A stretch of 64,000 bases of DNA from Spiroplasma gladiatoris (GTDB lineage Bacteria > Bacillota_I > Bacilli_A > Mycoplasmatales > Mycoplasmataceae): assembly GCF_004379335.1 (NCBI RefSeq), contig NZ_CP038013.1, forward strand, positions 1 to 64,000, read 5' to 3'. Of the stretch, positions 4,562-50,470 are shown in pieces. The position numbers and the translations under genes were made by a program. A model generated the notes under the pieces. It was not told where the DNA came from. It was given only the letters and a program-made list of their open reading frames with translations, and did no database searches. Every line of letters begins with the position of its first letter. The stretch's first letter is position 1.

Positions 4562-6999
4562 ATGATTGACAATAAAGAAACAATATTAGAAATAGATATT
4601 AAAGACGAAGTTGAAAAAGATTTTTTAGAATATTCAATGAGTGTTATTGTTAGTCGTGCTCTTCCAGATTTAAGAGATGGTTTAAAACCTGTGCAAAGAA
4701 GAATTTTATATTCTATGAATGATTTAAAAATTACTTCAGATACTCCACATAAAAAATCAGCTCGTATTGTTGGTGATGTTATTGGTAAATATCACCCACA
4801 TGGAGACAGTTCAGTTTATGAAGCAATGGTAAGAATGTCACAAGACTTTTCTTATCGTTATCCTTTAGTTGAAGGTCATGGAAATTTTGGATCGATTGAT
4901 GGTGATGGAGCAGCTGCTATGCGTTATACTGAAGCAAGATTATCAAAAATATCTTCAATGTTATTAAAAGATATTGATATGGAAACTGTTCCTTATATAG
5001 ATAATTATGATGCTTCTGAAAAAGAACCACAATATCTAACTGGTTATTTTCCAAATCTTTTAGTTAACGGAGCAACCGGAATTGCTGTAGGAATGGCTAC
5101 TAATATACCGCCTCATAATTTAAGAGAAGTTGTTGACGCGATTATTGCATATATAGAAAATACAGATATTACAATCGATGAAATTTTAACTTTCATTAAA
5201 GGTCCAGATTTTCCAACAGGAGCATTAATGACAAATGGTTCTAATATGATTGATGGATATAAAACTGGTAAAGGAAGTTTAATAGTAAGAGCAAAAATAG
5301 AAATTGAAGACACGTCTAAAAAACAAAGAATAGTAATAAGTGAAATACCTTATCAAACTAATAAAATAAGAATAGTTGAGAAAATAGCTGAACTATATAA
5401 AAATAAACAAATTACAGGAATAACAGATATTAGAGATGAATCAAATTATGAAGGCATAAGAATAGTTTTAGATTTATCTCAAAACACAAATGCTCAATTG
5501 ATTATTAAAAGACTTTATAAATATACAAGTCTACAAACAAGTTTTGCAATTAACATGCTTTCTCTAAATAACGGAATACCACAGATTTTAAACATCAAAG
5601 ATATAATAAAATTTTATGTAAAACACCAAATTGATATGATTTTAAAAAGATCAATTTTCGAAAAAAATAAAATTAAAAAAAGACTACACTTATTGTATGC
5701 TTTAAAAATTGCTTTAGATTCTGATAATATCGATAAAATTATTCAAATTATTAGAAGTTCAAAAACAAATGAAATAGCTTATAAAAAACTAAAAGAAAAC
5801 TTTGGTTTTGACGAAGTACAAGCAAAAGCGATTTTAGACATGAGACTACAAAGATTAGTTGGTTTAGAAAGAGAAAAAATTGAAACTGACATTAAAAACT
5901 TTGAGCTAAGATTAGCAGAACTTGAAAAAATAATTAATTCTAAAGAAGAACAAAATTTTATATTAAAACAACAGCTAACAGATATTGCAAACAAATATGG
6001 TGACGATAGGCGAACTGTAATAATAAATGAATCGCAAACTAAAATTGAAGAAGAAGAATTAATTCAAGATCAAAGAATGATTCTAACTATCACAGAGAGC
6101 GGTTATATTAGAAGACTTAGTTCAGAAGAATTCAAAACTCAAAAACGTGGAGGGAAAGGAATCATAATCAATTCTTATCCTGAAGATAATATTGTTATTT
6201 CACAAATGGGAAAGACAAAAGATGATGTACTATTTTTCTCAAACGAAGGAAAAGTTTACAAAGTAAAAGGATACAATATTACACAATTTACAAGAACATC
6301 AAGAGGTCTTCCTATAATAAATTTTATAGGTATTAACTCAACAGAAAGAATAACAGCAGTCCTTTCCTATAAAAACAAAAATAAAAAATTTAAGTATTTA
6401 GTTTTTGTTACTAAAAAAGGAACAATTAAAAAAGTACCTATAGAAGAATTTGATAAAATAAATAATTTTGGTAAAATAGCTATTATTTTAAATAAAGGGG
6501 ACGAACTAGTTTCAGTTGTTCCAAGTGCTGGTGTGAATGAAATTTTAATTGGATCAGAAAAAGGAAAAATACTTAAAATTGATGAGACAGATGTTAGAGC
6601 GATGTCAAGGTCTTCAATCGGTGTTAAAGGAATTTCTCTAGATAAAGATGACGCAGTTGTTAAAGCTGTAACAAATTATGGAAATGAAATTGTTGCTACA
6701 ATATCAGAATCAGGAATAATGAAAAAAACTTTAATTAGTGATTATAGTATTTATGGTAGAGGTTCAAAAGGAATTACTGGAATGAAATTGAATGATAAAA
6801 CAGGTAAGTTTAAATCATTTCACGCTATAAGAGAAACTGATGATTTAATAATGATTTCCTCAAAAGGGAAAATTATAAAAATCGAAGCAAAGGATATTAA
6901 TCTACAATCAAGAAACTCTATTGGTGTAATCGGATTTGGTTTAGAACCAGGCGAAACGATAACAGCAACAGCAATAGAATATAAAAAAGGAGATTACTA

Positions 7000-36566: not shown

Positions 36567-36712
36567 ATGATTACACAACATTTTTTGTTGTTATTTAATA
36601 TATTTGTTTTAAATTTATGATAATATTATTAATGGCAGATTTTAATTGTGGAAGTAAGAATATGAATATATTTAAACGTTAGGACCACAGCGAAAACAGG
36701 GAGGTGTTGTTC

Positions 36713-37150
36713 GTGGCAAAAAAAATCACACGTATAGCAAAACTTGAATTTATGGCAATGCAAGCAAAGCCTGGAGCTGAATTAGCTTCTTTAGGAATTA
36801 ACATGCCGCAATTCACACAACAATTTAATGAAGCCACAAAAGAAAGAGCTGGAGAAGTAGTTCCAGTTGTTATCACAGCTTATGATGATAAATCATTTGA
36901 CTTTGAATTAAAAACAACTCCTGCAGCATTTTTATTAAAAAAAGCAGCAGGAATTAACAAAGGAAGTAAAACTCCTGGAAAAGAAGTAATAGCAACAATT
37001 TCAGCAGATGAAGTTAGAAAAATAGCAGAATACAAAATGGTTGATTTAAATGCAACTAATATTGAAAGTGCTATGAGAATTATTGAAGGATCAGCAAGAA
37101 ACATGGGTATTAAAGTAACAGGTATGCCTGAAAAAGAAGGTAATAAATAA
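36713..37150 (+). CDS. rplK: 50S ribosomal protein L11
   Basis: Part of the GTPase-associated centre. The 145-residue product has [23 protein letters not shown] and [22 protein letters not shown] take GTG 36713 as start because GGGAGGTG (36699-36706) is then correctly spaced and the protein begins [13 protein letters not shown] as in relatives; an in-frame GTG at 36704 overlaps that site. The stop overlaps the rplA ATG by one base. Confidence 0.95.
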
Positions 37151-37836
37151 TGCCAAAATTAAGCAAAAAACTTAAAGTAGCAAATGCTAAAGTAGATAAA
37201 ACTAAATTATACCCAATCAATGATGCAATTAAACTTGCAAAAGAAACTTCAATTACAAAATTTGATTCTACAGTAGAAATAGCTTTTAATTTAAATGTTG
37301 ATCCAAGACATGCCGATCAACAAATTAGAGGTGCTATTGTATTGCCTGGAGGAACAGGAAAATCTCAAAAAGTTTTAGTTTTAACTAAAACAAAAGCAAA
37401 AGAAGCTCAAGAATCTGGAGCAGAGTTTGTGGGGGCAGAAGAACTAATACAAAAAATTCAAAAAGATAATTGATTTGATTTTGATGTAATAGTTGCAACA
37501 CCAGAAATGATGGCAGAACTTGGTAAAATTGGTAAAATCTTGGGACCAAAAGGACTTATGCCAAACCCTAAAACAGGAACTGTTACAGTTGATGTAAAAA
37601 AAGCAGTTGATGAAATTAAAAAAGGTAAAGTAGAATATAGAACTGACAAAGAAGGAAACATCCACTCAATACTTGGAAAAGTTTCATTCAAAGAAGAAGA
37701 ATTATTAAAAAACTATCAAGCTTTAATTGATGTAATAAAAAAAGCAAAACCAGCTGCAGTTAAAGGAACATATATTAAAAATATATCTGTTACCACAACT
37801 ATGGGTCCTGGTATTAAAGTACTAATTGAAAATTAA
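37150..37836 (+). CDS. rplA: 50S ribosomal protein L1
   Basis: L1-stalk protein involved in E-site tRNA release, and often a translational repressor of its operon. The 228-residue product has the family motifs [32 protein letters not shown] and [18 protein letters not shown] at 37471 is Trp. Unlike in Bacillus, rplJ does not follow: about 7.4 kb of accessory DNA intervenes. Confidence 0.96.
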
Positions 37837-40060: not shown

Positions 40061-41035
40061 GTGAAAAAATTACTTAGTTTATTAGGGGCTATGGGAATGA
40101 TTACAACTACTTCAAGTACAGTTGTCGCATGTCCAGATAATGGCAATGAAGTAAAAGATTTAAATAACATGACAACAAAAAACTTAGGAGATATTAAAGG
40201 AACAGAAAGTTTATCATCAATTTTTGAAATTGTTCAAGCAATAAATGTGGTAAACAAAGATTATGGTTTACAAGATAGTGATGTTGAATTTGATGGAACA
40301 CCAACAACTTTTAAAGCAACTTTAAAAGCAAAAACAGACTCAAAAAACTTTACAGGATCTGTTGAAGTAAGTTACAAACACATTCAAGAAAAATTAGATT
40401 TATCAACTATTAAAGTTGAAGAAAATGGTTTTAAAAGAGCTGCTCCAAATGAAAAAGGTAGTTTAAAAATTAGTTAATTAGATAACAGCTCACTACTTAT
40501 TAAAGGAAAGTCAGCAACATTTGAATTAAACTTTTTTGAAGATAGAAAAGACTTAAATTCAATAGCAGAAAGCGATAGAGTTATAAAAGTTAATTCAGTG
40601 GATTAAAGTGTAGCTGAAGAAGCAGCAATTGAATTAATCAAAGAAAAACTAAAACTTAGTCTTTTAGAAGCTAATGACATTTTATTTTCAGAATTTGCAT
40701 TCAAACATGATAAGGGTAGCAATAAAATTACAGGAAAACTAAATATAAAATCTAAGGAAAGTAACTTAAAAATAAAAGGCAATATTTATTTAGATATAGA
40801 GGATAGTAGGTTAGACCTCGGGAATGGTGAAATTTTTAAAAGAGATATAGGAGATGTTAAAGGTGTAGGGAAAAATGCAACATTAGATGAAGCAATAACA
40901 TGATTTAATGCAATAAATCCAAATTATTAAATCTCTAAAAATGACGTAATGTTTGTAGAAGATTCAGTAAGCAATCAAGGCGCTACTTTAAAATCAATAC
41001 CTAGCTCTAAATATTATTTTGGAAAACTAACTTAA
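40061..41035 (+). pseudogene. lipoprotein C, inactivated by three in-frame TAA codons
   Basis: GTG 40061 starts a full lipoprotein signal (MKKLLSLLGAMGMITTTSSTVVAC, Cys24) and LGDIKG module, preceded by TTTACA/TATAAT (39993-39998, 40015-40020) and a GTAGGAG site. The frame is broken by TAA at 40475, 40604 and 40928, yet reading through gives family-like sequence up to TAA 41033, with no frameshift. Aligned with lipoprotein B, the three stops fall at Ser (TCA), Leu (TTA) and Gln (CAA) positions, each one substitution from TAA. A secreted 138-residue fragment could still be made. Confidence 0.85.
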
Positions 41036-41106
41036 ATTGAAATTATACACAGTAACAATAATATTTAAATTTATGAAAAATTTTTCATATTTTTTTTATA
41101 AATCAC

Positions 41107-41137
41107 TTGCATTAACCTTAGGTCAATGTTTTAAAAT
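41107..41137 (+). promoter_or_regulatory. MerR-type promoter with 19-bp spacer and palindromic operator
   Basis: TTGCAT (41107-41112) and TAAAAT (41132-41137) are separated by 19 bp, the overlong spacing typical of MerR-activated promoters. Between the boxes and into the -35 lies the imperfect palindrome CATTAACC-TTA-GGTCAATG (41110-41128; 7 of 8 arm positions pair). The operon it drives includes a MerR regulator, so this should be its own operator. Confidence 0.75.
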
Positions 41138-41158
41138 AACATTGTAAGGAAAAAAGAT

Positions 41159-41968
41159 ATGAGTAAAAAATGATGATTTTCAGATTATGATGGAACAATT
41201 TTATTAGATTCTTCAGAAGGTATTTATAAACAAGACTTAGACTTTATTAATAAATGAATAAGAAACAATAATAACTTTGTAATTGCTTCTGGAAGAAATA
41301 GAGATGATTTAAAAAATATTTTAAAAACAAACAACTTAATTTATAACTATTTAATAACAAATAATGGAGCAATGGTACACGACAAAAATGATAAAGTAAT
41401 TTTACACAAAACAATTTCTTTAGAAGTTAGAAAAGATATTTTAAAACTTATTAATAAATGAAAAGATAAAGTAGGTATACAACTTTTATTTGGTAATGAA
41501 AGTTTAACTGTGTCATGTATAAAAAATAAAAGAAAGGATGTAGAACCTAATCAAATGGTAGAACTACATTGATTAAAAGTAAATAATTTATCTTTAAATT
41601 TTGAAAGTAAAGTTTTAAACGATAAAAACTTAGACACAATAAAATTTTATAGTTATTTAGAAGATCTTGACTGTATTGAAAAAGATTTTGCAATTATAAA
41701 AAATACACGTTATATGCAAACTTATTATTTTGTATTAGAACTAACAAATAAAGAAGCCTCTAAATTAGATGGAATAAAAGAAATACAAAAAATATTTAAT
41801 ATAAAAGAAAATGACATTTATGTTTCAGGTGATGGAGAAAATGATATTGAAATGCTTGAAGCTTTTCAAAACTCTTTTGTTGTATCTTCAGGAAACAAAA
41901 AAGCTTTAAAAGCAGGTAAACATGTTATTGACTCGATAAGTGATATTAAAAAATATGTAGAGGAATAA
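41159..41968 (+). CDS. HAD-superfamily phosphatase, Cof type
   Basis: Probable sugar- or nucleotide-phosphate phosphatase. The 269-residue product has the nucleophile motif DYDGT (Asp9, Asp11), ASGR (motif II) and GDGENDIEML (about residue 224, motif IV), with a C2B cap between. Five UGA codons (for example 41171, 41174) encode Trp. First gene of the MerR-controlled cluster, two bases before merR. Paralogous to the gene at 43466. The substrate is unknown; a detoxification or damaged-metabolite role is suggested only by context. Confidence 0.88.
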
Positions 41969-41969
41969 A

Positions 41970-42347
41970 ATGATGGAAACAAAAAAATTTTATGTAAGTG
42001 AAATTGCAAAACAATTTCACTTAACCCAAAACACTATAAGATTTTATGAAAAAAAAGGTTTATTACCTTGTATGAAAAGAGATTCAAACAATTATCGTTA
42101 TATTTTAGAAGAAGATATTAAATGATTTAATACAGTTATTTGTTTAAAAAAAACAGGTATGTCTATAAGTGATATTAAAAAGTATATTTCACTAGCACAA
42201 AAGGGAAACACAAGTGCTAACGAACGTTTAGAAATGATTACAAAACAAAAAACACAAGTTGTTAATCAAATAGAGTTTTTAAAAAAACAACTAGAGTTTC
42301 TAAATTATAAAACAGATTTTTACAAAAAAATTTTAGAAAATAAATAA
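41970..42347 (+). CDS. MerR family transcriptional regulator (AdhR-like)
   Basis: A 125-residue regulator with N-terminal winged helix-turn-helix (YVSEIAKQFHLTQNTIRFYEKKGLLPCMKRDSNNYR), the MerR hallmark, and a long dimerisation helix. A single Cys after GLLP matches the position used in aldehyde-sensing AdhR/NmlR regulators. Two tandem ATGs (41970, 41973) are possible starts after AGAGGA. It is flanked by a phosphatase and a zinc alcohol dehydrogenase, the usual AdhR context. It likely acts at 41107-41137. Confidence 0.87.
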
Positions 42348-42361
42348 AGGAGATTAATTAT

Positions 42362-43390
42362 ATGAAAGCAGTTTTTGGAAGCAACTATCCTAATAAAGTT
42401 GTAGAAATAAAAGATGTAGAAAAACCAAAAAACTTAAAAGAAGATGAAGTACTAGTAAAAACTTTATTTTGTAGTTTGTGCCATAGTGATTTGAGCATGG
42501 CAATTGGAGAATGAGGAGAAAAATCAAAAACAAGTGTTGGTCATGAATCTATTGGAGAAGTTGTTGAGATTGGTAAAAATGTAAAAGATTTGCAAGTTGG
42601 AGATTATGTTGTAGGACCAGCTGGTATTCGTGGTGCATGTGAAGAGTGTAAATATTGTTTAAGAGGTGAAGAAGTATTTTGTAGTGAAGGTATTTTTATT
42701 GATAAACGTGGCTATGGAACAATGCAAGAATATACTATTGAAAAAGCAAACTTTAGTATAAAAGTTCCCAAAAATATAGATCTTGCTTCAGCGTGTATTA
42801 TTACATGTGCTGGACTAACAGTTTATAAAGGTTTTAAATTAGCTAATACTATTAAAAATGACATTGTTGCAATTTATGGAATTGGAGGTTTAGGAAATAT
42901 TGCAATTGAGTATGCTAAAAATGTTTTTGGTTTAAAAGTAATTGCAATTGGTTCGAATGAAGACAGTTTAAAAATAGCGAAAGAAAAAGGAGCAGACCTA
43001 ATTATAAATTGAAAAAAACAAAATGTAGAGTCTGAAATTAATAAATTCACAAATAACCAAGGTGTAGATTTAGCAATGGTAACTAGTTCTACTATTGAAC
43101 AATTTAGTTTAGCTTTAAAAAGCTTAGCTCCTTTAGGAAAACTTTGTTCAATAGGTTTACCTAATAAAGATTTAAATATAAATATTTTAGATTTAACATT
43201 CGGACAAAAAACAATATATGGATCATTGATTGGAACTAGACAAGATTTAAAAGAAGCTTTACAAGCTTTATACGATAATAAAGTTCATCCTGATTTTGAA
43301 ATTAAATCAATTGATAAGGCAGAGAAGTACTTTGAATTAATGAATGAAAATAAACTTTTTAAACGAATTGTGTTTGATTTCTCAAAATAA
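42362..43390 (+). CDS. zinc-dependent alcohol dehydrogenase (AdhA type)
   Basis: Reduces aldehydes or oxidises alcohols with NAD(P). The 342-residue product has the catalytic zinc site Cys40, His61, Glu62, the structural zinc Cys93-x2-Cys96-x2-Cys99-x7-Cys107, and the Rossmann motif GIGGLGN. Length is normal. AAGGAG precedes ATG 42362. Third gene of the MerR-controlled cluster; it ends at a terminator. Substrate unknown, but such MerR-adhA pairs respond to reactive aldehydes in Bacillus. Confidence 0.92.
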
Positions 43391-43410
43391 TCTTTAAAGA
43401 TTATTTTTTT
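43386..43410 (+). terminator. terminator after adh
   Basis: The palindrome AATAATCTTT/AAAGATTATT (43386-43405), followed by T to 43410, overlaps the stop codon. Confidence 0.8.
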
Positions 43411-43465: not shown

Positions 43466-44263
43466 ATGAAGTGATGATTTTCAGATTATGATGGAACAAT
43501 TAATCTAAACCATAATGATTCAATTGATCCAAAAGATTTAAATTTTATAAATCGTTGAATAAAACAAGGAAATACTTTTGCTATTGCAACAGGAAGAATG
43601 GTTGGAGAAATACAAGATATTTTAAAAAAAGCAAAAGTACCTTACAACTATATAATTTGTAACAATGGAGCAATGGTTTATGAAAAAGAAAAAGGAATAA
43701 TTGCCAAAACCCCAATACCTTTTGAATATCGTAAAAATATAAGTGAGATATTTAAAGAATTAAGAAATAATTTTATTTTAGGCTATTGTCTTTTAGATCA
43801 AAGAATGTCCTACTCAAAAATATACACAAAAGAAGTTGAGGAAAATCCTTTTTTAATAAAGTATGCGCCTAAAAAAAATAATTTTGAACAAGGACAAAAA
43901 GATATTTTAGAAAACCCTGATTTAAATTTGTTATATATTTATATAAATCAATCTGAAGCAAGAGATGTAAAAAAAATGTTACAAGAAAAGTTTAAAGGTT
44001 TGAAAGTTGTAAGAACTCACGCAAATGTAATTGAAGTAATGCATAAAGAAGTTTCTAAAGCGCATGGAATATTGGAAATTCAAAAATTAAAACATTTTGA
44101 ATTAGACGATGTTATTACAAGTGGTGATGGCGAAAATGATATTGAGATGTTAGCTTTAACAAAAAACTCTTTTGTTATGAAAAATTATCAACCTGGTGTT
44201 GAAGAATACGGAAAGCACATAATTTCTAATGTTTGAGAAATTGAGGAGTATCTTAAAAAATAA
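43466..44263 (+). CDS. HAD-superfamily phosphatase, Cof type (second copy)
   Basis: A 265-residue paralogue of the 41159 gene: KWWFSDYDGTI (Asp7, Asp9), ATGR, IICNNGAMVY and GDGENDIEMLALTKNSFVM. It lies after the adh terminator with its own TATAAT (43433-43438). AAAAGGT precedes ATG 43466. UGA codons at the third, fourth and later positions encode Trp. The two copies probably arose by duplication around merR-adh. Confidence 0.88.
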
Positions 44264-44429
44264 TATTATAAGTTTTTATAAAAAAATTTAAATTAATGTA
44301 TATGAAATAACTCGTATTAAGATTACAATAACTAAAATTTTAAAACTGATTATATTATATTTCCGTTAGCTTTTTTGTAAAACTTTATTTCTTGAAAAAT
44401 AAAGCTCATGATTTATCGAGTTGTCAAAT

Positions 44430-45106
44430 ACTGACCTGGAATTATTAAAGGTTTTAATGGTACACCAACGTTAGAAGAAATTGTTAATTCTGTAAATATA
44501 AGTAAGGAAAAATATAATCTTAATTATTCTGATGTTTATTATAAATATGATAACTAACCAAACAATAATCACGCTGTTATTTATTCTAGTTGAAGAACAT
44601 TTATTTTTTTGGTATCGCTAATATTAACTATAAAAATATAATATTAGAAAAATTTATATGAATTAGAAGATGAAAATGTATAAATTTATTTAAACAGAAA
44701 CGTTGATAAAAATGTCATCAAACAAGCAATTCTAACAATTAACATTTTTTTTAATATAGAAATAAAAAATGATTTGGATATAAAAATTAATAATATAATT
44801 ATACAAAAAGATGAGAAATCGGAAAGTGTAGATATAGCACATTAAAATCTAGCCAAATTTTTATAGTTAATAAAATATGAAAAAAGACTTAACATCATTA
44901 TCTAGTGAAGATTTAATTTTACAACCCAAAAAAGAATCAAAAGGAGTAATTACTATAATATTACTTCCTAATAGTTTATATATAAAAGTTGATAAAAAGG
45001 CTATAATTTTATTATCTCTTGATTGATTATTTTACTTGTTACATAATTGCTTGTTATTCATAAATATGTTTATTAGATTTTTAAAAAGTATAAGACACAT
45101 ACTTTA
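44430..45106 (+). pseudogene. heavily decayed lipoprotein of the same modular family
   Basis: No long reading frame remains, but pieces in changing frames match the family in order: GIIKGFNGTPTLEEIVNS and NYSDVYYKYDN (44440-44554, then TAA 44555), HAVIYSSWRTF, VIKQAILTINIFFNIEIKND (near 44710-44770), NNIIIQKDEKSESVDIA, and a final DLTSLSSEDLILQPKKESKG with SLYIKVDKKAI (44885-45005). The last part ends in a hydrophobic segment. The N-terminal signal is lost. Between 44264 and 44430 I see nothing identifiable. Confidence 0.75.
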
Positions 45107-45113
45107 AATATGG

Positions 45114-45268
45114 TATTATATTAATGCTATTCGTACCAAAGAAAGTAACAGGGTTAAACCCTTAATTTGTTACCGAGGAATGAAATTATATTACATACTA
45201 TTTTTTAAAATAGATATTTAGTGTATTTTTAATTAACCTCGTAAATAACTTTTCGAGGTTTTATTTTG
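45114..45268 (+). promoter_or_regulatory. ribosomal protein L10 leader with attenuator
   Basis: After a -10 TATTAT (45114-45119), the leader has the L10-binding features: ACCAAAGAAA, a stem GTAACA (45145-45150) with TGTTAC (45168-45173) enclosing GGG/CCC, then CGAGG (45174-45178). An intrinsic terminator follows, AACCTCG (45235-45241) with CGAGGTT (45254-45260) and a T-rich tail. The first CGAGG can also pair with CCTCG of the terminator, an antiterminator. L10(L12)4 binding leaders of this form control rplJL in Firmicutes. Confidence 0.85.
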
Positions 45269-45303
45269 ATTTAATTTTGAATAGTGAAAAGGAGGTCGTA
45301 CTA

Positions 45304-45804
45304 GTGTCAGTTTCAAGACCAGCACATGCTAAAAAAGATGAAATTGTAAAAGATATTACTAACAGAATTAAAAACTGCAAAGGAATGGTAATAGCTGAAT
45401 ACAAAAACTTATCAGTTGCTCAAATGACGCAATTAAGAAACAAGGCTCGTGAACAAGGAATCTTTATAAAAGTTTATAAAGATAGCTTAGTTTCAAGAGC
45501 AATTGAACAATTAAAAATAACAGGTTTAGAACCATATTTAACACAACAAAACGTGTACATATTTTCAGATGAAGAAGCTTTATATCCTGCAAAATTAGTT
45601 GATAATTTTGCAAAATTAAATAAAGATTTAAAGTTAAAAGCTGGAATTTATGAAGGTAACGTTATGGATACAGCAGCAATTAACGAAATTGCTTCTCTAC
45701 CATCAAAAGAAGAACTATACTCAATGTTTGCTTCTTCACTTATTTACCCACTACGTCAATTTATGTTGACAGTAAAAGAAATCGCAAAAACAAGATCAGA
45801 ATAA
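45304..45804 (+). CDS. rplJ: 50S ribosomal protein L10
   Basis: Anchors the L7/L12 stalk and represses its own operon through the leader. The 166-residue product has KNCKGMVIAEYKNLSVAQMTQLRNKAREQG. GTG 45304 is chosen because AAAAGGAGG (45287-45295) is then well spaced; an upstream in-frame TTG (45277) precedes that site. rplL follows. Confidence 0.95.
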   Translation: MSVSRPAHAKKDEIVKDITNRIKNCKGMVIAEYKNLSVAQMTQLRNKAREQGIFIKVYKDSLVSRAIEQLKITGLEPYLTQQNVYIFSDEEALYPAKLVDNFAKLNKDLKLKAGIYEGNVMDTAAINEIASLPSKEELYSMFASSLIYPLRQFMLTVKEIAKTRSE

Positions 45805-45859
45805 TTTAAATTAAAGTGTACTAATAGCAAATTTAATTATTTGAAAAGGAGAAACTATC

Positions 45860-46225
45860 ATGGCAATTACAAAAGATGATATTATTAAAGCTTTAGAAGA
45901 AATGAAGTTAACTGAGTTAAACGATTTAGTTAAAGCAATCGAAGACCACTTTGGAGTTGTTGCAGCAGCAGCAGTTGCAGCACCAGCTGCTGGAGCAGCA
46001 GATGCAGCACCAACAGAAGTTAATGTTTTATTAACAAATCCTGGAGGAAACAAAGTTGCAGTTATTAAAATTGTAAAAGAATTAACAGGATTAGGATTGA
46101 TGGATGCTAAAAAATTAGTTGATGGAACATTACCAGCAACTATTAAAGAAAACGTAAAAGTTGAAGATGCAGAAGCAATCAAAAAACAATTAATGGATGC
46201 TGGAGCATCAGTGGATCTAAAATAA
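45860..46225 (+). CDS. rplL: 50S ribosomal protein L7/L12
   Basis: Stalk protein that recruits translation factors. The 121-residue product has the N-terminal dimerisation domain, an Ala-rich hinge ([18 protein letters not shown], about 33-50) and the C-terminal [33 protein letters not shown] precedes ATG 45860. Confidence 0.97.
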
Positions 46226-46319: not shown

Positions 46320-46904
46320 ATGGCAAAATCAAACAAAATAGATTTTTTAAAAGATTATATAACAAACGAAGGTATAGAAGTAGGTGACTATACTTACTTT
46401 TATTCTCTTAATGGAGTCCAAGGACTAAAGGAATTTCAAAATAAAAATGTTTTATATCACTTCCCTAAAATAACAAAAACAAAATTAATAATTGGTAAAT
46501 TTTGTGCGATTGCAGAAGATGTAAAGTTTATAATGAGTGGAGCAGAGCATAGAATTAACTCGTATTCAACTTATCCATTCGAAATGTTTTTAGAGTTTAG
46601 TAACAAATCAAAAATAAATTTAAAAAAGAATTATAAAAGCAATACCATTGTAGAAAATGATGTATGAATTGGTTATGGTGCTACTATTTTACCAGGAGTA
46701 AAAATTGGTAATGGGGCTATAATTGGTGCAAAAAGTGTTGTTACTAAAAATGTTGAACCTTACACAGTTGTTGCTGGAAATCCAGCAAAAGTTATAAGAA
46801 AAAGATTTGATAATAAAAAAATCTTCTACTTATTAGATTTAAAATGATGAGATAAACCAATAGATAAAATAATTAAACTTTTAGAAACTCTTACTAATGA
46901 ATAA
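46320..46904 (+). CDS. Vat-family xenobiotic O-acetyltransferase
   Basis: Left-handed beta-helix acetyltransferase of the streptogramin A/CatB group. The 194-residue product has [31 protein letters not shown], with the catalytic His77 in the family's G-A-x-H-R context, and hexapeptide repeats ([32 protein letters not shown]). Length is a little under typical Vat (about 210). UGA at 46665 and 46845-46850 encode Trp. It lies alone between rplL and an IS relic, with AAAGAGG before ATG 46320. Drug resistance is possible but not shown. Confidence 0.82.
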
Positions 46905-47099: not shown

Positions 47100-48028
47100 T
47101 TATAAGAATACTTCAAAATTATTTGAAGTATTTTTTTTATGTGGAATAAAACCGATATAAGCATATGCCGGAGGTCCATTATGTTTAATCATTATTCTTG
47201 TATAGTTATAAAACTCTACATAATTATCTATTACCTTTTTTAGATTGATAAAACTATTTTGTTTTAATTTAGTTTTTCATTCTTCTTTTAATGAAGAGAA
47301 AAAAGTTTCACACATTGCATTATAAATAGAGTTACCAGGTCTAGATATTGATATTATCATGTTATTTTTTTTTAGCATATCGTCTCGCAAATACAGATGT
47401 GTACTGAATTCCATTATTAGAATGAATAATTAGTTTTTTAGATATATCTTTTCTATGTAGCGAAGCTTTTTCCAGTGATTTTTTATAAATATCTATATCG
47501 TTTTTTAAAGATACTTCATGACCGACTATAAACCCAGTATTTGATCTTTTATAACACTTAAATATGCAAACTTTTTGTTAAACAGTATATAAGTGACATT
47601 TGTAACTCATAACTCATTTTTTGAGTATAAAGATCAGTTTCTATTAATATGATTAGGACCGTGTATTATTTTTTTGACTTCTTTAAGTTTTCTATTCATT
47701 TTTTTAACTCTTATAACTGAATATAATTTAAATATTTTCATAATTCTAGATATCTTAGTTTGGCTTACCATATTGCCTTTATTATTTAAAATTATTTTTA
47801 TTATTAGTTCACTATAAATTCCATTGTGCTTCATAAAAATATCTTTTATTTTATAAGCTAAATTCATATCTAATTTTAATTATTGTATTTTGACTTATTT
47901 TTTTGTATCAACGATAATAACTAGCTCTAGTTATATTTAATAATTTACATAAAGAAAAAATTGCATATGTATTTTTATATTTATCTATTGTTTTGTAATA
48001 ATTAATTATTCTTTTTTTGAATCCTCTG
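47100..48028 (-). pseudogene. IS3-family transposase OrfB remnant
   Basis: Read on the - strand the fragments RIINYYKTIDKYKNTYAIFS, LCKLLNITRASYYRWYKK, MNLAYKIKDIFMKHNGIY, ELWVTNVTYILFNKKFAYL, GNSIYNAMCETFFSSLKEEW and VEFYNYTRIMIKHNGPPAY appear in order, the typical IS150-like OrfB with parts of the DDE core. At least one insertion (near 47870) and several stop codons interrupt it, so it cannot be active. Confidence 0.82.
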
Positions 48029-48355
48029 CTAGTTCATTGAACTTTTAAAAACCTCATTCTCCATTTCCAATCATTTTAATTTTTTGTTAAGTTTAGCGAT
48101 TTTTTTGTCTTTTGGATCTTTTGAATTAGTTCTAATTTTTCCGTGATGTTTGTTGTGTTTTCCTGTTTTTGAAATGAGTGATTCATCACCATAAACTTCT
48201 CAATCTAAACACATTCTTCTAACTGTTGAATATGATATGTTGTAAGTTTTTGGTAAATCTCTAAAAGATAAATTTTGCTTAAAGTATTTATTTATTAATT
48301 CTTTTTTAGTATCAAAATCTAGAATATTTGATTTGTTTCCTTTTAAATTTGCCAT
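48029..48355 (-). CDS. IS3-family transposase OrfA (C terminus altered)
   Basis: A 108-residue DNA-binding transposase part with helix-turn-helix (QNLSFRDLPKTYNISYSTVRRMC) and a leucine-zipper start (LKWLEMENEVF). UGA at two codons is Trp. A one-base loss near 48040 changes the ending: another frame would read KFNELAEDSKKE, the usual OrfA end, followed by an A-rich slippery site (about 48006-48020). The part is therefore probably non-functional. AAGGAGAA precedes the ATG (about 48363-48370). Confidence 0.75.
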
Positions 48356-48606
48356 ATAAAAAATTCTCCTTGTATAATTTTATGTTTTTTTTAACATAAT
48401 GTATACTTAGAGAATTATATTTAGATAATCTCATTTATTTGTTTTTATTTTATTAATTTTTAGAAAAAGCAAAACAACATATAATATAAGTAATAAGTTA
48501 GGAAAATTATATGATTCTTTTTATTAATATTACAAATATTTTTAGAAACCAGTAATTCTTCTTAAAAGCTCTATAAATCTATTAAAAAAGAGTTTATCTT
48601 TGATAA

Positions 48607-48975
48607 AGAAACAAAACAATAAATAAAAAAATCAAATATTACTTAGCAATAGAATGTATCAATATTTTTATTGCTTTGACTTTTATGTTATAGGCTTTTA
48701 TATTTTATAAGTACAATTTTGATGAAGTTATTTATTTTCTTATGATAGGAATTGCAGGTATTTTTGTAATAGCCATCTATATTGCTGACAACACATTTGC
48801 ATTATTAACTTATAAATTATTTTATAGTTGTATAGAAATAAATAAAAAATCATATTTAACAATTTTGTATGTAATTGCCTTAACTTTTTTTCCTATAATA
48901 GGATTTTTTGCAATGTTATTTATATTAAAAATACAACAAAAATTATTAAGAAGTACTGTATATGATTATTTATAA
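48607..48975 (+). pseudogene. fragment of a membrane protein gene, broken
   Basis: From 48607 the frame reads NKTINKKIKYYLAIECINIF and continues past a TAG at 48691 into a 77-residue stretch with two hydrophobic segments (GIAGIFVIAIYIADNTFALL and LTILYVIALTFFPIIGFFAM), ending VYDYL at 48975. Upstream pieces (48480-48606) contain more stops in all frames and no start with a ribosome-binding site. The stop codon lies within the target duplication of the IS1202-type element. Not recognised; probably a dead gene. Confidence 0.55.
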
Positions 48976-48992
48976 AAAAAACGTAATTTCTA
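48964..48992. repeat. 29-bp target-site duplication, left copy
   Basis: Identical over 29 bp to 50471-50499, directly flanking both ends of the element. It starts GATTATTTATA and ends GTAATTTCTA. Confidence 0.93.
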
Positions 48993-50470
48993 TGTCAATA
49001 ACTAATTAATTTTTCCTAAAACTTTATTTTTTGAGTTTTTATAAAAGATTCAATTAGTATACTTTCAAGGACTGCTTGTTTTTATTGGCTTATAAATTTT
49101 ATTTATCTCAGCCGGGTTTTTATCTTCATACACCTCTTTATAAGTAGAATTTTGTAATACTTCTAATAAAGGCATTCATTCGCTATATGAGTTTGAATAT
49201 AGTTTTCCGTCAAATGTCTCAACAACCATTATTTTTGTTTTATTTTTATAAAAAACTGGTTCTCCATTTGAATGTGGAATATAGTACTTATTTTGGTATT
49301 TTATAGTTGAACCCTTATTTACGGTTCTTTCAAATCTTCTAGATAAATAAAAATCTATATTTTTAGTTTCTTCAAAAAATCTAAAAGAATTAGTGATATT
49401 CTCTATTTGAAGGGAAAACTGTGAATTATATTTATCTATATATTCATCTAAAAACAAATTAGCTTGGTTTATAGTTGATATATTATTTTCTTTAAGTTCC
49501 TTTGGTAGGCGATCTTGAAGTGTATTTCACAACCTTTCAATACGGCCTTTAGTTTGTGGAACGCTAGATGTTGTTAATTTTATTCCTAAGTTGTGACACA
49601 AAAATCCGTATTGTGTTAAGGAGTCAGAATGTAGATCTGACTCCTTTTCTTTTGGACTTCAAAATACCGTTCTTTTGTCTGTCAATATTTCTTTAGGAAT
49701 CCCATAGTTAAGAAAAACTTTCTTTGTGATATTGTAATAACCCATAAGAGTTTCTTCAGTGTCAAAATATAAAGCCAATATTTTGCCAGTAGCATCATCA
49801 ATAAAACCATGTAGATATCATTTTTCTTCTTTAATTCAGTAATGTACAGAAGCATCTGTTTGCAACCTTTCTCCAAACTCAGTTTTTCTATGTTGCATTG
49901 GATGACTATTTTCAATACTTAATAAAGTATTTAAATATTCTTTTTTTTCTATATTTTTTATATTTTGATTTTTTAAACTGTAAGCTATTTTTTGTTTAAT
50001 TATTTTTTTAGTTACTTTATGTATTCTTGGAGAATACATGTTATTTTCCTTTAAAAACTAAGTAAATATGTATACGAAACTTTTATATTATAATTTTCTA
50101 GCAACTTTTCTTGAAAGTGTTTGTAATTGTAGTCACAAAATTCATCTTTATATAATTTAATTATTTTTTGACTAATATCACTGCTTATTCTTCTGCAAGA
50201 CAATCTGCCAGTGTTCTTATGAATAAAAGCTATGTAACCATTTTTTTTATATTTATTAATTAATATATTTACATTTCTAATTGTTTGACATAACTTTATA
50301 GAAGCTGACTCTTTTGTTATTTTTTGATCTATAACGTCTTTGATAATTTCCATTCTCTTTTTTTCATTCATATTTAAATATCTCCTCATTTTAAACCTCC
50401 CAATAAAATAATTATAGTTTGGGAAATTTTAATTTGTTATATATAAGGAAAATATCATATGTTATTGACA
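48993..50470 (-). mobile_element. IS1202-group (ISNCY) insertion sequence
   Basis: A 1478-bp element with terminal inverted repeats beginning TGTCAATAAC at 48993 and at 50470 (reverse), extending imperfectly to a shared TTTTCC. It is flanked by a 29-bp direct repeat. Such long duplications (about 24-29 bp) are known for IS1202. It carries one transposase gene on the - strand, frameshifted once. It sits between the dead membrane protein gene and the rpoB promoter. Confidence 0.9.
49002..50389 (-). pseudogene. IS1202-group transposase, one frameshift
   Basis: Read from 50389 (or ATG 50371, better spaced from AGGAGA): MNEKKRMEIIKDVIDQKITKESA, a helix-turn-helix part, to SYTYLLSF and TAA at 50051. 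The next frame continues MYSPRIHKVTKKII through LQTDASVHYWIKEEKWYLHG (first catalytic Asp), FIDDATGKILALYFDTEE, GIPKEILTDKRTVFW and TKGRIERLWNTLQDRLPKEL (catalytic Glu), to TAG at 49002. Restoring one T in the T5 run near 50057 rejoins the frames, so only a single base separates this from an intact gene. Confidence 0.85.

Follow-up and report, generated by a model that had tools for sequence, protein, structure and literature searches.

Introduction

The closest described systems are small aldehyde-responsive regulons under MerR-family proteins. AdhR of Bacillus subtilis responds to methylglyoxal and formaldehyde (PMC4776306, PMC3499171), and mutation of its Cys52, or of Cys54 in the Haemophilus influenzae NmlR (HiNmlR), abolishes the formaldehyde response (PMC4776306). 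As a rule, the operators of this family are dyads placed in a 19-20 bp spacer and centred 7-8 bp from the -35 box (PMC5045206), and the MerR dimers bend and untwist such overlong spacers (PMC9909328). A study of the near-minimal JCVI-Syn3A cell lists methylglyoxal control among its unsolved gaps and describes the HAD phosphatases of this cell as quasi-essential with unclear roles (PMC9426524). Here, we analysed a 64,000-nucleotide stretch of the Spiroplasma gladiatoris genome (hereafter, the window), which carries an operon encoding a HAD phosphatase (HADa), a MerR regulator and a zinc-dependent alcohol dehydrogenase (ADH). In all probability, this operon forms a small regulon for aldehyde defence, of a type already known but with the phosphatase as an unusual additional member.

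Results

The HADa-MerR-ADH operon lies between rplA and rplJ

The host genome (G000; 1.16 Mb, one contig) reads TGA as Trp, and the HADa, MerR and ADH genes are open only under code 4. Read with this code, the three genes that the original prediction had placed under one promoter all proved to be real. They lie, together with a paralogous phosphatase gene (HADb), between rplK-rplA (36704-37836) and rplJ-rplL (45277-46225), in the order lipoprotein genes and debris, HADa, MerR, ADH and HADb. The features of the region were as follows:

41072-41097, + strand: hairpin and T-run, the probable end of the upstream lipoprotein-debris unit (7-bp stem, -3.9 kcal/mol, z -1.5, weak)
41107-41112, + strand: -35 box TTGCAT, read from the sequence; same alignment position in relatives
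41110-41128, + strand: predicted MerR operator CATTAACCTTAGGTCAATG, a dyad with 8/9 pairs and its centre at 41119
41132-41137, + strand: -10 box TAAAAT; its 19-nt distance to the -35 box is invariant in relatives
41146-41150, + strand: putative ribosome-binding site AAGGA for HADa, from the sequence
41159-41968, + strand: HADa, HAD-IIB phosphatase, 269 aa (PF08282, 130.9 bits)
41970-42347, + strand: MerR regulator, NmlR/AdhR-like, 125 aa, with Cys58 at the sensor position (PF13411, NCBIfam, HiNmlR alignment)
42362-43390, + strand: zinc-dependent medium-chain ADH, AdhP/AdhA-like, 342 aa (PF08240, PF00107)
43384-43407, + strand: intrinsic-terminator-like hairpin and T-run at the ADH stop, the operon end (-6.3 kcal/mol, z -3.9)
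43466-44263, + strand: HADb, paralogous Cof-type phosphatase outside operator control (TIGR00099, tree, neighbourhood)

The spacer between the -35 and -10 boxes (41113-41131) is 19 nt long. The dyad starts in the last part of the -35 box and continues into this spacer, and its centre falls 7 nt past the box, which is the arrangement described for MerR-family operators. The HADa start codon is located 21 nt downstream of the -10 box. The unit had also been regarded as inserted in the ribosomal superoperon. This description fits its location only: between rplA and rplJ, non-ribosomal genes are found family-wide (HADb and often a MerR gene with an aldo/keto reductase gene), and the unit is bounded by a promoter and a terminator of its own.

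Concerning the surroundings, spiralin-domain lipoproteins adjoin the operon region, which is flanked by debris resembling lipoprotein genes with in-frame stops (40061-41040 and 44264-45117). A ribosomal protein L10 leader (45118-45273; RF00557, 55.1 bits) precedes rplJ. Farther on, a hexapeptide acetyltransferase gene (46320-46904) resembles Vat streptogramin acetyltransferases (best model 217.6 bits, cut-off 300); it adjoins rplL in many genus members and, therefore, it is probably native rather than acquired resistance. Transposase-like reading frames occupy the minus strand at 47100-50389, between rplL and rpoB. An alignment scan of named genomes yielded one relative, Spiroplasma sp. JKS002669, which is thus the closest named one by ADH (56% identity). 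Scanning with a single protein gave no match.

The regulator carries the sensor cysteine of NmlR and AdhR

The regulator has a MerR-type winged helix-turn-helix (PF13411, 62.4 bits with a cut-off of 21.6; PF00376 also above cut-off). Its best NCBIfam model was NmlR (NF041849), at 82.4 bits against an equivalog cut-off of 175, and we therefore call it NmlR-like and not an NmlR equivalog. Its best solved relatives were the H. influenzae NmlR structures 5e01, 5d8c and 5d90. The lone cysteine after GLLP that had been singled out at first is in fact one of two, C34 and C58, and it is not conserved: the position of C34 varies freely, and while flavodoxin-linked paralogues also have C there, the majority of other relatives carry Y, H, N, K or F. 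C58, on the other hand, aligns with the sensor cysteine of the NmlR/AdhR group (C54 of HiNmlR, 5e01; C52 of AdhR), and it is kept in all relatives compared, apart from the SDR-linked paralogues, which have L or I.

These NmlR-like, SDR-linked paralogues lacking the sensor cysteine were found in G013, G129, G073, G037, G103, G109 and G141, and in several of their loci the SDR gene is preceded by operators of the same geometry. This family, therefore, does not always sense through that cysteine, and the subgroup may sense something else.

The ADH contains the catalytic and structural zinc ligands (C40, H61 and C149; C93, C96, C99 and C107), which are invariant. Its best NCBIfam model was AdhP, and it is thus termed AdhP-like only, since the score of 294.6 bits lies below the equivalog cut-off of 344. 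The best solved match was the bacterial Alcohol dehydrogenase 1 (4eex) and not a glutathione-dependent class III enzyme, whose model gave 80.8 bits with a cut-off of 544.

Predicted operators precede carbonyl reductase genes in related genomes

Across the order, 36 of 298 genomes had a relative of the window MerR. Six genus members (G037, G091, G070, G020, G057 and G109) have, in the rplA-rplJ interval, HADb, MerR and an aldo/keto reductase, the latter recognised over only part of its length in G109. The operator of these loci lies between HADb and MerR, which places HADb outside the regulated unit. At other loci, the MerR gene adjoins an aldo/keto reductase, SDR, flavodoxin or ADH gene. G183 has HADa, MerR and ADH in the same order as the window, preceded by lipoprotein genes and followed at some distance by HADb and rplJ, and G079 presents the order ADH, MerR and HADb. 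The ADH of G079 (5517-6542 of its locus, L036) is broken by an in-frame TAA, reflecting either a recent pseudogene or a sequencing error; the operator is intact.

Two operator types were distinguished. The AACC/GGTT type gave 15 matches in 7 of the 20 genus genomes and none with the reversed pattern. All 15 lie just upstream of a gene, at 17-44 nt from the start codon, a distance that is not readable in G079, where the ADH frame is interrupted. These operators precede aldo/keto reductase genes in G000, G171, G121 (twice, in two subfamilies), G100, G183 and G088; ADH orthologues in G171, G121, G079 and G088, which, like the ADH of the operon itself, are at the sequence level predicted targets, as ADH genes are for NmlR and AdhR; HADa in G000 and G183; and DUF3737 genes in G121 and G183. 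A second copy in the host genome, TTGCCTTAGTCTTAGGTCAATGTTTTAAAAT, is located on the minus strand at 632171-632201, 29 nt before the gene of a 329-aa aldo/keto reductase, which is thereby a predicted trans target of the MerR. The AAAGTNACTTT type marks other lineages, with 22 matches in 13 genomes and 0 in the control, and most of the sites examined stand in front of MerR-aldo/keto reductase units, SDR, flavodoxin and aldo/keto reductase genes and a HAD phosphatase gene. In G168, a same-type operator (1354645-1354675) is found 36 nt upstream of the gene of a 488-aa protein that, by eye, looks like a transketolase or DXS-type enzyme.

Regulators with RFYxKKG in the helix-turn-helix region pair with AACC/GGTT half-sites and those with RYYDS pair with AAGT/ACTT, which might constitute a protein-DNA recognition switch. 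This region corresponds to window positions 42039-42071 (MerR residues about 24-34).

The same operon and operator, both real, would also fit a MerR that senses an oxidant, nitrosative stress, a quinone or a metal, with the reductases serving redox balance or fermentation. Near 179330-179823, the host genome has a second NmlR-like MerR gene of the same type, which adjoins a flavodoxin gene and has 19-nt-spaced operators on both sides. Flavodoxin and SDR partners would be in keeping with quinone or redox stress, and AdhP-type ADHs have fermentative roles too. However, the predicted regulon consists mostly of carbonyl reductases (two aldo/keto reductase subfamilies and ADH), Cys58 occupies the electrophile-sensing position, and the 125 residues hold no cysteines besides 34 and 58, so there is no C-terminal paired-cysteine metal site. 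We therefore regard a different cue as unlikely and favour a carbonyl-sensing MerR.

Operators upstream of the HADa and HADb phosphatase genes

HADa contains the four HAD motifs (D9YDGT, ASGR, K202 and GDGEND) and scored 65.5 bits with the HAD-IIB model TIGR01484 (cut-off 41.8). With the Cof-type model TIGR00099 (cut-off 137 bits), HADa remained below the threshold (121.6) and HADb exceeded it (147.4). A protein tree separated HADa-type from HADb-type proteins with strong support. In many genomes, HADb is found between rplA and rplJ with no MerR gene there, and it is therefore an old resident of this interval. Membership of HADb in the operon was considered and ruled out by the terminator that precedes it and by the lack of an upstream operator in any genome checked.

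With HAD genes so common between rplA and rplJ, HADa could be a passenger that merely adjoins MerR-ADH, its co-transcription having no function. HADb is a family-wide neighbour in that interval, and the HADa-clade genes of G013, G020, G057, G070, G091 and G103 have no recognisable operator. The remaining HADa-clade genes argue against it. In addition to G000 and G183, in which MerR is present, full operators precede the HADa of G144, to which no MerR is immediately adjacent, and the HADa-clade gene of G037, at 587 kb and far from the MerR at 37 kb; a weaker operator (6/9 pairs) precedes that of G109. An operator of this kind was not seen before HADb. A passenger role is thus rather improbable, and HADa appears to be a real operon member. 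As operators are present before HADa-clade genes in several lineages and absent before others, the phosphatase would be a recurrent but optional member of such regulons. It had been called unusual at the outset, which remains true with respect to published NmlR regulons, but its recurrence in the genus indicates that it is no accident of one genome. The G183 HADa was examined as a possible pseudogene and this was discarded, as this 267-aa gene simply ends at what had looked like an internal TAA.

The operator geometry is unique in the window

A scan of the window with a fixed geometry (TTG, dyad centre, 8/9 pairs, 19 nt and TANNNT) returned a single match, the site at 41107-41137, which bears out the 19-bp-spaced promoter with a centred palindrome that had been proposed. 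In simulated sequence of the same dinucleotide make-up, the full geometry was expected 0.03 times per 64 kb. Two other scans of the window did not pick up the site, the general sigma-70 scan because it allows only 16-18 nt spacers and a dyad scan because it demanded 4/6 matches to TTGACA. Generic sigma-70-like matches in this AT-rich window were no commoner than in shuffles, as would be expected if the boxes were noise around a chance palindrome and the genes were transcribed from elsewhere, but that explanation is ruled out for practical purposes by the 0.03 expected matches, the 15 operators against 0 in the reversed control and the recurrence of this sequence upstream of orthologues in other genomes.

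Discussion

The comparative operator evidence supports well the original proposal of a self-regulated aldehyde-stress operon of the NmlR/AdhR type with an operator-filled, overlong spacer. HADa-MerR-ADH is, in our reading, likely to be a self-regulated NmlR/AdhR-like carbonyl-stress operon, in which modification of Cys58 would switch on both the operon and the aldo/keto reductase gene in trans. Several points weigh against this reading: the regulator stays far from the NmlR cut-off (82 against 175 bits), the ADH resembles AdhP and differs from the class III, thiol-dependent enzyme that classic NmlR operons encode, HADa is not an obligate member, several clade genes being without an operator, and the SDR-linked paralogues lack the cysteine.

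The sequences show the geometry of the promoter, the conservation of the operator and of Cys58, the structure of the operon and the content of the predicted regulon; DNA binding, the inducer, activation by untwisting and the enzyme substrates are inferred. The MerR dimer would sit on the dyad inside the 19-bp spacer, which RNA polymerase could not use unaided. Modification of Cys58 by an electrophilic carbonyl, be it formaldehyde, methylglyoxal or some other aldehyde, or by an adduct of it, would convert the bound repressor into an activator that untwists the spacer, turning on its own operon and, in trans, the aldo/keto reductase gene at about 632 kb. ADH and the aldo/keto reductase would then reduce the carbonyl to an alcohol, and HADa would dephosphorylate a sugar- or triose-phosphate, either the carbonyl source or a damaged product. 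More tentatively, a Mollicutes-specific NmlR-like regulon might join carbonyl reductases with a dedicated HADa clade, placing the removal of reactive carbonyls and the phosphorylated metabolite that is their source or is damaged by them under one regulator, in organisms whose methylglyoxal control has no other explanation.

Few transcription factors are retained in Mollicutes. With its defined operator and its predicted regulon of few genes, this regulator offers a directly testable carbonyl-stress circuit in these organisms, and the operon would link a HAD phosphatase clade to carbonyl stress. The parts of the operon are of known kinds and their combination was not found in the literature searched, which included few subscription papers: there was no description of an AdhP-like ADH, aldo/keto reductase, HAD phosphatase and DUF3737 under an NmlR-like protein in Mollicutes and no paper on a MerR family transcriptional regulator of Spiroplasma. 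MerR was likewise absent from the main text of a Mollicutes promoter-mapping study.

Among the known systems is the AdhR regulon (adhA-yraA and yraC) of B. subtilis, a low-GC Gram-positive relative. There, a MerR regulator with one key cysteine (Cys52) controls a zinc ADH and responds to carbonyl electrophiles (PMC4776306, PMC11577753), as is predicted for the Spiroplasma operon. The targets differ: a thiol-dependent formaldehyde dehydrogenase, a DJ-1/PfpI-type protein and a carboxymuconolactone decarboxylase for AdhR, and an AdhP-like ADH, an aldo/keto reductase and a HAD phosphatase, with DUF3737 in relatives, for Spiroplasma. The NmlR-AdhC-EstD system of Haemophilus and Neisseria provides the closest solved regulator, the same cysteine position and an adjacent, controlled ADH gene. 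In contrast to its glutathione-dependent class III AdhC and esterase EstD, the Spiroplasma operon has no esterase and its ADH is not of class III. The Cof-type HAD hydrolases of JCVI-Syn3A and Mesoplasma florum are alike at the family level (HAD-IIB), with a proposed role in metabolite-damage control (PMC9426524), but that work draws no transcriptional link to carbonyl defence. Finally, the HADb-MerR-aldo/keto reductase cluster of related genomes shares the rplA-rplJ interval, the regulator family and the operator geometry, and it differs in the operator position between HADb and MerR, in its AAAGTNACTTT halves and in the aldo/keto reductase that replaces the ADH.
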